Shown piece after piece: positions 34,581 to 37,664 of a stretch of 64,000 bases of DNA. The position numbers and the translations under genes are program-made. The notes under the pieces are model-generated. The model was not told the DNA's origin and ran no database searches. It worked only from the letters and a program-made list of their open reading frames with translations. Where the stretch lies: assembly GCF_002264395.1 (NCBI RefSeq), contig NZ_NFVA01000035.1:1-64000 (forward strand), given 5' to 3'. Within the stretch, counting starts at the first letter, position 1, and each line of letters starts with the position of its first letter. The stretch comes from Paenibacillus sp. VTT E-133291 (GTDB taxonomy: Bacteria; Bacillota; Bacilli; Paenibacillales; Paenibacillaceae).

Positions 34581-34600
34581 CCTAAAATTCCTTATCTTTC

Positions 34601-34649
34601 AAAAAAGATCGCTTCCCAGACCAACTTGGTCAGGAAGCGATCTTTTTTT
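34601..34649 (+). terminator. Bidirectional terminator between proC and the ECF operon
   Basis: AAAAAAGATCGCTTCC pairs with GGAAGCGATCTTTTTTT, and an inner GACCAA/TTGGTC stem extends the hairpin. It serves the plus-strand pro operon and the convergent minus-strand operon that ends at 34660. Confidence 0.93.
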
Positions 34650-34659
34650 GAAGTTAAGG

Positions 34660-35391
34660 CTATGATTTGCCCGATACGACATTTCCATAAGTATCTCGAA
34701 CAATCACTTTAACATTAGCCGGAGCCCCAACAGTCACGTCAAGGTTGTTCCTAGAATTATCAAATAGCAAATCTCTAGGAGTTTCCCCTAAAATGATGTA
34801 TAGCGTATTCCCGACATGCTTAGTCTGAAGCAGTTGTTGCTCTTGTGCTTCTTTTAGCTTCCCTTTATTTGTAGAATAACTTCCAAATACATTCAGCTCG
34901 TGCCCACCCGTTTGATCCACTTTAATCCCGTAAGGCTCGGCAGCTTGGACAATGATGGTACTAACGCCGTCTGGAACGGTTCCCTGCCAATCAGGTAATG
35001 TATAACTTTCCTCCACAGCTGAGACGGTACGGCGAAATTCCTGAGTTAATCCTAAGGAACTAAATCCCGCAAAAATCAGACAACATACAGATATAAACCC
35101 TACGAAAAGAATACTTAACACGTCATAATACATTTTTCCTTTTCCACGAAACCATAAAGTGTATATCACTATTTCCAAACCTAACAATATAAAAATGACC
35201 GGCCACCAAGCAAGCGTCGTCTCAAACACTTCCGCTCCCTTCCACTGCGAGACCATAATTAAAGCCCCCAGAAATAAAAGGCTCAGTCCCATCGATAATG
35301 TCCCTACACGCCAGCGTCTTGATTTATCTTCAGTGACTGGACGCTCGCTTGGAACAATGACTCCCTGCTGTAATTCAGTCGGATTATTCAA
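34660..35391 (-). CDS. LiaI/LiaF-like membrane protein, last gene of the ECF operon
   Basis: 243 residues from a TTG start that overlaps the previous stop (TTGA). Cytosolic N-terminus of about 28 residues, three membrane helices (31-49, 59-80, 90-110), then a soluble C-terminal region of about 130 residues, predicted outside the cell, ending in a beta-rich part (LDVTVGAPANVKVIVRDTYGN). The helix pattern with TTLAWWPVIFILLGLEIVIY resembles the LiaI-LiaF transmembrane region, and the C-terminal strands resemble the LiaF/toast-rack type. LiaF proteins modulate envelope-stress sensing. Function here is inferred from the operon only. Confidence 0.75.
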   Translation of the reverse strand: MNNPTELQQGVIVPSERPVTEDKSRRWRVGTLSMGLSLLFLGALIMVSQWKGAEVFETTLAWWPVIFILLGLEIVIYTLWFRGKGKMYYDVLSILFVGFISVCCLIFAGFSSLGLTQEFRRTVSAVEESYTLPDWQGTVPDGVSTIIVQAAEPYGIKVDQTGGHELNVFGSYSTNKGKLKEAQEQQLLQTKHVGNTLYIILGETPRDLLFDNSRNNLDVTVGAPANVKVIVRDTYGNVVSGKS

Positions 35392-36491
35392 GAATGACCA
35401 CCTGTCCCTTTTCTCCCTTTATTGTTCTTACTTCCCGCCATCAGCTTCAAACCACCGCCAATTAATAGCACAGATACGATAATGGTTCTGAAATATTCAT
35501 TGACTATATACTCCAAATGCCATTCAGGAAATCTGATATCAAGCGCAGGAACTGCGACATTCACTACAATGTAATACAATCCTAGACACAATAATGCAGC
35601 TCCAAGCCACCCTTGATGATTTAAGAATCCTTCGATAACTGGCTTATCCTGCAAGGGCTCCCGACCATGTCGGCTGACAAGCTGTAAGCCATCGAACAAA
35701 CTGTAGAACCAAATGACTGGGATCAGGAAGAAGAGCAATGTTAATCGCAGTAGATCCATGACATAAATACTTCCCAGGAATAGCAGCATGAGCTGTAAAC
35801 CTCTTTTTTGCAGCCCTAGATACATTTGTCCAGCACCTGGAAAAGCAGAAAGCAGCGTTGCCAAAACTTTGCTGCGGCGCCCCTCCTCACGACCCGCCTC
35901 CATCTCTTCGAATAAAGTCCGATCTACCATCTCTTCTCCAGCTTGCTTGCGATGGATTAACTGAACCGCATCAAACATGCAATACAACCAGATAACGGGT
36001 AATACGCCAAACAAGAGAAGAAAAGCGTCACTAGACGTAATTCCAGCCAGGAATAACATCACGGTCATAAAACCGAAGAAAGAAATGAGGAAGGATAACC
36101 CTCGCTGCATCAGCCCCATATGAAAATGACCTAATCCTGGAATGAACGATAATAAGATTACATGGACACGCTCATTATCCGCAGTTTTAACGGGCACCGA
36201 AATAAAATCAACCCTCGATCCATCTGGAGCCATCGCCGGAGCAGGCATCTGCAGCATTTTTACCACCAGATGCACCATAGAAACTGTCCCAATAAGTAGG
36301 AACCCCATCACACCCATTATTAAAATATCCTCAGCGCCTTCAGCCACAGCTATCAAGAATGACATAAATAAGATGCCAAAGCTTAACAGAAGATAAACAA
36401 TGCCTTGTGGACGTTTTCCGATATAATAATGACCTGCTCCAGGAATCAAATTAAGAAAAAAGGCCTTTAAATTACTACGCTGCTGTTGCAT
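35388..36491 (-). CDS. Polytopic membrane protein with three ~100-residue internal repeats
   Basis: 367 residues, about nine hydrophobic segments. The sequence repeats three times at residues ~9, ~110 and ~209: FFLNLIPGAGHYYIGKRPQG, ILLSFIPGLGHFHMGLMQRG and TLLSAFPGAGQMYLGLQKRG, each followed by a hydrophobic helix ending in FG or LG. Repeats 2 and 3 also share a closing motif P-V-I-W-x-Y-x-x-F-D-x-x-Q-L. The N-P-G-x-G-x-x-Y-x-G core resembles TM2-domain proteins, but three in tandem is not an architecture I can name. It starts 18 bases after the anti-sigma stop and overlaps the next gene by 4 bases. Role unknown; probably envelope stress or homeostasis. Confidence 0.75.
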   Translation of the reverse strand: MQQQRSNLKAFFLNLIPGAGHYYIGKRPQGIVYLLLSFGILFMSFLIAVAEGAEDILIMGVMGFLLIGTVSMVHLVVKMLQMPAPAMAPDGSRVDFISVPVKTADNERVHVILLSFIPGLGHFHMGLMQRGLSFLISFFGFMTVMLFLAGITSSDAFLLLFGVLPVIWLYCMFDAVQLIHRKQAGEEMVDRTLFEEMEAGREEGRRSKVLATLLSAFPGAGQMYLGLQKRGLQLMLLFLGSIYVMDLLRLTLLFFLIPVIWFYSLFDGLQLVSRHGREPLQDKPVIEGFLNHQGWLGAALLCLGLYYIVVNVAVPALDIRFPEWHLEYIVNEYFRTIIVSVLLIGGGLKLMAGSKNNKGRKGTGGHS

Positions 36492-36509: not shown

Positions 36510-36998
36510 TCACTTTCTGTTGCCCATTAGCTGATCCAACCATCCGCTAGTTGCCTGTATGACTTGCTCGCTAAATGACGGTAAATTATCTTTTTTAGGG
36601 ATCATAAGCTCCATTTGACCTGTGTGCAGCTTATCAAACATGCCAGAGGACATGATCAACAGCGTAAGTGACGCGGCAACAGCATAATGAAAGATTGTTT
36701 TTTCATACCAGCGATATCGCCGTCCACCTTCTTCAACCGCCACTTGTTCCAATAATGCTGAAGATTCCGCCATTGGTTTAACCCATGCTCCCATAATTCT
36801 CTCTGTAAAAGCAGACGAATTCTCCAATGAAGGCAGTTCCTCTTGTAGCTCATCCAACATTTCCATATATGAAGTAAGACTTTCTTCATCTTCCAGCAGT
36901 AACTGTTCCCAATCTTCTCTCACCGCCTCTTCCATATGACCTTCAATATAAGCTTTTGCTTGTTCCCGTTGGATTGGATCGTCTCCATGCTTCATCAT
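36510..36998 (-). CDS. Anti-sigma factor (zinc-less, single-pass membrane)
   Basis: 162 residues. I chose ATG 36998 because it overlaps the sigma stop by four bases (ATGA) with AAGGAGG ten bases upstream; other in-frame ATGs at 37004 and 37034 are less well spaced. The N-terminal ~90 residues are helical and acidic (QREQAKAYIEGHMEEAVRED), as in anti-sigma domains, but there are no cysteines, so the zinc-binding H-x3-C-x2-C motif is absent. One membrane helix at about 103-121, then a short extracytoplasmic tail. It should hold the ECF sigma factor inactive at the membrane. Confidence 0.82.
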   Translation of the reverse strand: MMKHGDDPIQREQAKAYIEGHMEEAVREDWEQLLLEDEESLTSYMEMLDELQEELPSLENSSAFTERIMGAWVKPMAESSALLEQVAVEEGGRRYRWYEKTIFHYAVAASLTLLIMSSGMFDKLHTGQMELMIPKKDNLPSFSEQVIQATSGWLDQLMGNRK

Positions 36999-37543
36999 AG
37001 CCATTCGTCCTCCTTCCAATGATTTCGAATCCATTGTCTTGCCCTATATAATCTGGACTCTACCGTCTTCAGGCTAATTCCCTGCTCTGCAGCAATCTGA
37101 TCATATTTTTTATGTTCCAGATAATAAGCCACCATAATTTCACGATGAGTTTCAGGCAGGCTATTGATTTCACCCAGCAGCCGATCCATCCGATCACGGC
37201 GTATAACACCTGACAACACATCCTCCTCGTTGGAAGCGGTCTGGCTCAGTACAAGCTCATAGTCAACGGGTAGTTCTCTGAGTCGATCTCGTTTACGCTT
37301 AGCATCTATTGCCTTATTTAAGGCGATCCGTGTAATCCATGACTTCAAGCCTTGATAACGGTAGTCAGGGAGAGATTTGTACATCTGTAAAAAAGCTTCC
37401 TGAGCAGCATCTTCAGCCATCCTGACATCGCGTAATACAGAATAAGTAACTTTGTATATTTGCTGACTGTATGTATTCACAAATTGGCGGAAGGCCTCTT
37501 CGTCTCCTTGGCAAATTCGCTTGATCAATAACTCATCTTCAAT
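36995..37543 (-). CDS. ECF-type RNA polymerase sigma factor, apparent ATT start
   Basis: 182 residues if translation begins at ATT 37543. Sigma region 2 (DEEAFRQFVNTYSQQIYKVT, AEDAAQEAFLQMYKSL, LKSWITRIALNKAIDAKR) and region 4 (LPETHREIMVAYYLEHKKYD, GISLKTVESRLYRARQWI) are complete. An excellent AAGGAGGGG site lies 8 bases before ATT, giving an N-terminus read as M-EDELLIKRICQGDEEAF, the usual ECF length. No ATG, GTG or TTG occurs in frame at a suitable distance; the frame stays open upstream only with non-family sequence. It directs RNA polymerase to a stress regulon, probably including this operon. Confidence 0.88.
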   Translation of the reverse strand: MEDELLIKRICQGDEEAFRQFVNTYSQQIYKVTYSVLRDVRMAEDAAQEAFLQMYKSLPDYRYQGLKSWITRIALNKAIDAKRKRDRLRELPVDYELVLSQTASNEEDVLSGVIRRDRMDRLLGEINSLPETHREIMVAYYLEHKKYDQIAAEQGISLKTVESRLYRARQWIRNHWKEDEWL

Positions 37544-37613
37544 GACTCTCCCCTCCTTCCCACAGCAATAGACGCTCTCAATTATAACTACCCCTGCACT
37601 TTTTTTATAAAAT

Positions 37614-37664
37614 ATTAAAAAGAACCGTACTGACTTTAGCGATGGGCTAAAGCAATACGGTTCT
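37614..37664 (-). terminator. Terminator after dnaD
   Basis: Minus strand: AGAACCGTA pairs with TACGGTTCT around an inner CTTTAGC/GCTAAAG stem, followed by five T. It ends the hbd-ackA-asnS-dnaD transcript and separates it from the ECF operon. Confidence 0.9.

Follow-up and report, generated by a model that had tools for sequence, protein, structure and literature searches.

In Bacillus subtilis, small membrane proteins encoded in the sigM-yhdL-yhdK and sigY-yxlC-yxlD-yxlE operons assist the anti-sigma factor. In Streptomyces, the sigR gene starts with GTC in 32 of 34 species and is repressed by IF3, and changing this start to a canonical codon renders the system constitutive, according to the available part of the report (PMC5472188). 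The available part of a report on Staphylococcus aureus describes AUU and AUA starts that are paired with extended Shine-Dalgarno sequences and give a lower yield in infC, cvfC1 and ccpN (PMC13009471); unlike the gene considered here, these do not encode sigma factors. Among the literature matches listed, sigR was the only ECF sigma factor gene with a non-canonical start. The start codon of Listeria SigB is reportedly the subject of one paper. Toastrack/LiaF-type proteins belong to the PSP and Lia membrane stress systems, and an operonically linked sigma factor is mentioned in a related context in the available part of one study (PMC11237479), from the main text of which the terms 'TM2' and 'anti-sigma' are absent.

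The locus described here lies in a window of 64,000 nucleotides from Paenibacillus sp. VTT E-133291 (contig NZ_NFVA01000035.1), where a gene for a membrane protein with three tandem repeats is the third gene of a conserved cassette comprising an ECF sigma factor, an anti-sigma-like protein, the repeat protein and, often, a LiaF-like protein. The repeat gene (35388..36491, minus strand) starts with ATG and encodes 367 amino acids with eight long helices in the structural model. The original prediction placed three repeats about 100 residues apart, and these repeats are real. The PGxG motif recurs with the right spacing at residues 17, 118 and 218, and none of 1000 shuffles for each pair reached the Smith-Waterman score between repeats 1 and 2 (90, z 10.8), 1 and 3 (76, z 9.1) or 2 and 3 (142, z 20.2). 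With boundaries defined by a profile, repeat 1 (36246..36482; residues 4-82, NLIPGAGHYYIG) is the most divergent copy, followed by repeat 2 (35946..36179; residues 105-182, PGLGHFHMG) and repeat 3 (35667..35879; residues 205-275, PGAGQMYLG), all on the minus strand. The second motif that had been reported, PVIW-x-Y-x-x-FD-x-x-QL, is present in repeats 2 and 3 and absent from repeat 1. All 56 of the three-repeat proteins tested gave three domains with the repeat profile, 50 of them having supplied that profile themselves. The earlier description was thus right about the repeats but overlooked a fourth element, a C-terminal two-helix hairpin (35433..35627, minus strand; about residues 289-353), which is no copy of the repeat and shows no similarity to any of the three (z -0.6, -1.1 and 0.0).

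The resemblance to the TM2 domain, which had also been proposed, is supported only in part. At E <= 0.1, TM2 (PF05154) matched 23 of 50 relatives, but the window protein reached only 16.4 bits (21.1 in a genome search) against a cut-off of 27.9, and TM2 was rejected as a family name on this score. Pfam DUF6677 (PF20382) matched all 50 relatives at the same threshold and the window protein with 29 bits over two stretches, above its gathering cut-off of 24.3; the single-repeat paralogues described below score under that cut-off. The window protein has in common with DUF6677, a family of unknown function, and with TM2 the PGxG motif ahead of a helical hairpin, and differs from both in its three tandem copies and extra hairpin.

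An AlphaFold2 model of the repeat protein built on a 50-row alignment had a mean pLDDT of 84 and a pTM of 0.50, a value that leaves the packing of the repeats unsure. Each modelled repeat consists of a short helix, the PGxG turn, another short helix and two long helices, and the further hairpin closes the protein, giving the eight long helices altogether. Because the linker between the long helices of each repeat is about two residues long in the model, one membrane face would be almost loop-free. Long loops 2 and 4 carry a net negative charge (D+E > K+R) and the termini a net positive one, K+R per residue shows no clear difference between the membrane sides, and the N-terminus was assumed to be inside. 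A Foldseek search with the repeat protein gave no fold match (best E 3.4), which does not by itself establish a new fold. Likewise, a VIA fold comparison gave no match (best Z 5.7, to a designed helical protein), a PDB sequence search no credible match (best E 0.57) and a plasmid search no match, and PHROGs returned one weak match of unknown function (E 5e-4).

The sigma gene (36995..37543, minus strand) encodes 182 amino acids if read from ATT at 37543-37541. Its short product is of the ECF type, with PF04542, PF08281 and TIGR02937 (sigma-70 regions 2 and 4) above cut-off, and these profiles bear out the earlier assignment of the repeat gene to a sigma-factor operon. The presumed anti-sigma gene (36510..37004, minus strand) probably starts at position 37004 with an ATG that has a Shine-Dalgarno sequence to itself, in an open reading frame whose longest form begins at 37034, and its product has one transmembrane helix, judged by eye, and a short tail. 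It is presumed to be an anti-sigma factor from its position and its alignment with a zf-HC2 paralogue; no anti-sigma profile matched it and no zf-HC2 match was found at E <= 1. The zinc ligands (HxxxCxxC) are lost in this protein and replaced across its clade; many of its homologues retain them, and the paralogue in the same genome passes zf-HC2. Pfam matches to NEL and DUF761 were both under cut-off and were disregarded.

The fourth gene (34660..35391, minus strand) has a TTG start overlapping the stop codon of the repeat gene and encodes a LiaF-like protein of four helices and a short Toastrack-like beta domain. It scored 19.8 bits against PF22570 (LiaF transmembrane domain), below the cut-off of 27; the corresponding neighbour in a paralogous cassette passes with 30.2 bits. 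Foldseek matched its C-terminal domain to 3PET (7e-4), 4QRK (8e-4) and 4OPW (4e-3) with a probability of 0.99-1.00, at a TM-score of only 0.24-0.28 and an rmsd of about 5 over about 110 columns, and no DUF4097 sequence match was found in the protein. A hairpin of about -40 kcal/mol (34600..34655) between this gene and the convergent proC is probably a two-way terminator. At the other end of the cassette, a terminator-like hairpin read from the sequence separates dnaD from the sigma gene (37617..37663, minus strand; GAACCGTA...TACGGTTCTTTTT). A promoter and terminator scan, in which the latter hairpin was absent from the output, gave four sigma-70-like promoters against 6.4 in shuffles.

Among the best 80 of 494 confirmed loci, a set biased towards the nearest relatives, homologues of the sigma and anti-sigma genes lie upstream of the repeat gene in all 80 named loci, the gap between the anti-sigma and repeat genes is under 60 nucleotides in 77, and LiaF-like homologues were found in 45. 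Judged from these neighbourhoods, the sigma, anti-sigma-like and repeat genes travel as one cassette. The original prediction knew of no description of a triple fusion in a sigma-factor operon; the operon stands, but the architecture is not peculiar to this locus, as among the same best 80 of 494 loci the triple repeat occurs in at least ten named genera (Paenibacillus, Bacillus, Neobacillus, Cytobacillus, Mesobacillus, Fredinandcohnia, Lysinibacillus, Halobacillus, Aquibacillus and Brevibacillus). In 37 genomes of the genus, with the repeat protein counted as present at E below 1e-80, it occurred together with the anti-sigma in 19, and the other 18 had neither (Fisher p 6e-11), a pattern that is to be expected if the operon is deleted as a unit and that does not prove contact between the two proteins. 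Outside the genus, 13 genomes had a strong repeat-protein match, nine of them with an anti-sigma match at E <= 0.001; the others are G042, G050, G054 and G057, and in G050 a weak anti-sigma homologue adjoins the repeat gene (L026). A literature search found nothing on DUF6677, multi-TM2 proteins or a TM2/sigma-factor context in Paenibacillus. The cassette context may already be listed in Casas-Pastor 2021, which is said to be the reference ECF classification. The available parts of two further papers contain nothing on the cassette (PMC3171730; PMC8999054), and the latter names ECF234 of Paenibacillus polymyxa.

Two paralogues in the same genome carry the module of the window protein with one repeat each. 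In the first (L002), a sigma factor, a zf-HC2 anti-sigma, a single-repeat protein and a LiaF-TM/Toastrack protein follow one another in the gene order of the window cassette; this locus also has the promoter motif discussed below, and differs from the window in its zf-HC2 anti-sigma and in having CTG at the sigma start position. The second (L003, 178-2163, minus strand) is a 661-residue fusion that joins one repeat to a membrane region and to a Toastrack domain, and a sigma homologue was not found within its 3.5-kb locus. Open reading frames of a length similar to this fusion match the repeat in many genomes of the genus. Single-repeat homologues, including these two, back the earlier suggestion that the protein arose by internal duplication.

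In a phylum sample of 199 genomes including our own, 36 had a repeat-protein match at E <= 1e-5. Thirty of these loci were fetched, three of which encode full three-repeat proteins from the own genome, genus and family; the other 27 comprise one three-repeat, 12 two-repeat and 14 one-repeat proteins. Homologues of the sigma factor (28 of 30), the anti-sigma (22 of 30) and the LiaF-like protein (27 of 30) accompany them, and both loci without a sigma homologue are short and truncated at the end of a contig. A tree of 118 repeats, with only 78 columns and 63 of 115 inner branches under 80, places first repeats (25 of 26, SH-aLRT 98) and second repeats (25 of 26, SH-aLRT 96) in groups of their own and joins third repeats to the final repeats of two-repeat proteins (SH-aLRT 93). 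In a tree of 47 sigma factors, from which four loci with a missing or short sigma were left out, 23 of the 24 that belong to three-repeat cassettes fall into a single clade (SH-aLRT 99), and a larger group with a support of 91 adds to these 23 a further nine whose cassettes encode two repeats and one whose cassette encodes a single repeat. The clade and the repeat groupings together place the triplication before the spread of these genera, and by the two trees sigma factor and repeat architecture were mostly inherited together, the one-, two- and three-copy forms following the sigma phylogeny. Both trees are midpoint-rooted, and an order from one to two to three repeats is the simpler reading of them rather than a proven direction. 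A single repeat within the two-repeat sigma group (L155) suggests a loss, and the three repeats of a distant member of the Bacillota (L154), the first and second of which do not group with those of Bacillales, look like an independent triplication.

The start codon of the sigma gene seems to be AUU (37541..37543, minus strand), placed after an extended Shine-Dalgarno sequence (37546..37560, minus strand; GGAAGGAGGGGAGAG), as its frame contains no ATG, GTG or TTG at the right distance past that sequence and has ATT there. The codon at this position was read in 92 distinct loci out of 109, 11 having been left out for a BLAST alignment that started too far into the gene and six as duplicates; seven rows were moved one or two codons according to a rule. 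It is ATT in 82, ATC in seven, ATA in two and TTG in one. ATT thus accounts for 82 of 91 ATH codons at the position against a share of 47% among the remaining isoleucine codons of these genes (ATT/ATC/ATA 504/361/207), although the 92 rows are mutually related. The gap to the Shine-Dalgarno sequence is 6-9 nucleotides in 85 of 92 loci. In the paralogous one-repeat cassettes (L002 and L172-L191), the equivalent position holds CTG in 17 and TTG in four of 21, and in two-repeat cassettes ATG was seen by eye at the sigma start in six of 12. By a simple rule applied with no control, 90 of 92 loci have a canonical start for the anti-sigma gene past a stretch resembling a Shine-Dalgarno sequence.

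It is very improbable that ATT is here an ordinary isoleucine codon and that translation of the sigma gene starts at a canonical codon upstream or downstream. Such codons do exist nearby, as a TTG lies five codons downstream of ATT in the window, the first canonical codon downstream comes at four or five codons in 14 of 92 loci and at nine in 16, and an ATG or GTG stands immediately before ATT in three (L099, L110 and L116). Against this, 88 of 92 loci have no canonical codon at the position or directly before it, and in 40 of 91 an upstream in-frame stop is followed by no ATG, GTG or TTG before the position, with none for ten or more codons downstream either in 27 of those 40; in these counts, seven of the 92 rows still sit one or two codons away from the correct place, and TTG occupies the position in one of the 27. 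The Shine-Dalgarno spacing, the enrichment of ATT, albeit in related rows, and the CTG and TTG codons of the paralogues likewise argue against it. The proposed promoter -10 element lies about 25 nucleotides ahead of the end of the Shine-Dalgarno sequence, which would make an upstream start unlikely for that transcript. In the same genome, infC (L192) reads as a very similar arrangement ending in ATC, and in addition to this normal infC the genome encodes a second protein with an IF3 N-terminal domain (L193, a 268-residue frame).

Aligned DNA upstream of the sigma genes shows the footprint GTGCAGGGG-N16/17-CGTCTATT, from which an autoregulated ECF promoter is proposed at 37569..37598 (minus strand), with -35 TGCAGGG and -10 CGTCTA. 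CGTC is a known ECF -10 element, although the -35 element differs in the available part of that study (PMC3397946). A search for a standard ECF -35 element (GAAAC/AAC) before the sigma gene gave only scattered matches, and the GCAGGG motif from the alignment was adopted. The strict pattern GCAGGG-N16/17-CGTC occurred in 69 of 100 upstream regions against 0.75 in shuffles; the window is present twice in this set, which makes the count 68 of 99, and some of the 99 regions are second copies of genomes present in two collections. The 31 misses carry TGTAGGG or TGCAGTG-like versions, and a relaxed pattern, composed after these misses had been inspected, fits all 99 regions, with a shuffled expectation of 0.16 for the 31. 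In the phylum set together with L002, the motif fits 15 of 29 regions (0.15 in shuffles), four of the 15 being from the own genome, genus or family, and in the paralogous cassette it was found in all 21 copies (our own and 20 others). A conserved motif of predicted ECF type is thus at the head of the cassette.

Searches for further sites gave no convincing targets outside the cassettes above the reversed-pattern control, in either the own genome or 41 genus genomes. In the own genome, the strict motif gave three sites (the two cassettes and C113, inside an unrelated gene) against two control matches, and the relaxed motif three sites including C213 against seven. In the 41 genus genomes, the strict motif gave 19 sites against seven control matches, of which 12 lie at the sigma gene of the cassette, six elsewhere and one near a contig end of G020 (L130). 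This last is perhaps the same cassette site, and the absence of the cassette from G020 may be an assembly gap. The strict search recovered 12 of 19 known cassettes in the genus genomes and so is of limited sensitivity, and a wider regulon beyond the cassettes may exist. One of the six sites elsewhere, at about 1501 of L131 in another genus genome, lies some 57 bases upstream of an ABC transporter open reading frame, a possible outside target.

We prefer, tentatively and with slightly less than even confidence, to regard the repeat protein as the membrane sensor or co-anti-sigma of a self-contained ECF switch. The anti-sigma, with one transmembrane helix and a short tail, would have no room for a sensor domain and would most likely depend on its multi-hairpin neighbour, which would hold it and sense the state of the membrane. 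A membrane disturbance would release the sigma factor, which would then activate the promoter of its own gene; levels of the repeat protein and the LiaF-like protein would increase and close the loop again. The AUU start would keep the sigma factor scarcer than the anti-sigma, as shown for Streptomyces SigR/RsrA, leaving the loop silent until triggered. It is also possible, if not what we would expect, that the repeat protein, together with the LiaF-like protein, is an effector rather than a regulator, the very product that the sigma factor serves to make, which would stabilize the membrane or handle lipids and be raised under envelope stress. The main argument for this is that the motif searches point to cassette promoters only, so the output may be the operon proteins, and an effector would suit this equally well; a Toastrack/LiaF-type partner, from the PSP/Lia membrane stress systems, also speaks for it on the available part of the source (PMC11237479). 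On the other side, the repeat gene directly follows the anti-sigma gene with little gap or overlap in the 77 loci counted above among the best 80 of 494, and sensing would have to lie outside an anti-sigma that seems to have no sensor domain of its own, two points that an effector could also accommodate.

A protein that serves as both regulator and effector, its abundance reporting membrane capacity and feeding back on the anti-sigma, is unlikely in our view; the promoter motif at the head of the whole cassette would suit it, and nothing direct sets it apart from the regulator or effector accounts. If the sensor or co-anti-sigma role is taken further, the cassettes could represent a three-component type of ECF switch, widespread in the Bacillota and so far undescribed, in which a stack of one to three PGxG hairpins is the sensor holding a sensorless anti-sigma, and in which the number of hairpins, raised by stepwise duplication from one to three, and the AUU or CUG sigma start together determine the level at which a nearly private positive feedback loop is triggered. 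We consider this broader proposal doubtful.

What began as a local oddity has turned out to be a cassette found across the family, with a promoter motif that can be read and a countable series of one, two and three repeats. If the AUU start is true, gene finders limited to ATG, GTG and TTG would tend to mis-start the sigma gene, and the principle of Streptomyces sigR, in which a weak start keeps the sigma factor below its anti-sigma, would recur with another codon in a second phylum. The window cassette resembles sigR-rsrA in its presumed sigma/anti-sigma pair, in the apparent non-canonical sigma start, conserved among loci, and in an extended Shine-Dalgarno sequence. It differs in having ATT, or CTG in the paralogues, in place of GTC, and RsrA is a redox sensor; control by IF3 has been shown for Streptomyces sigR. 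Its LiaF-like partner recalls the LiaI-LiaF-TM and Toastrack proteins of the PSP-Lia systems, but the classical lia operon is governed by a two-component system. The role proposed here for the repeat protein would be comparable to that of the small membrane proteins that help the anti-sigma in sigM-yhdL-yhdK and sigY-yxlC-yxlD-yxlE.
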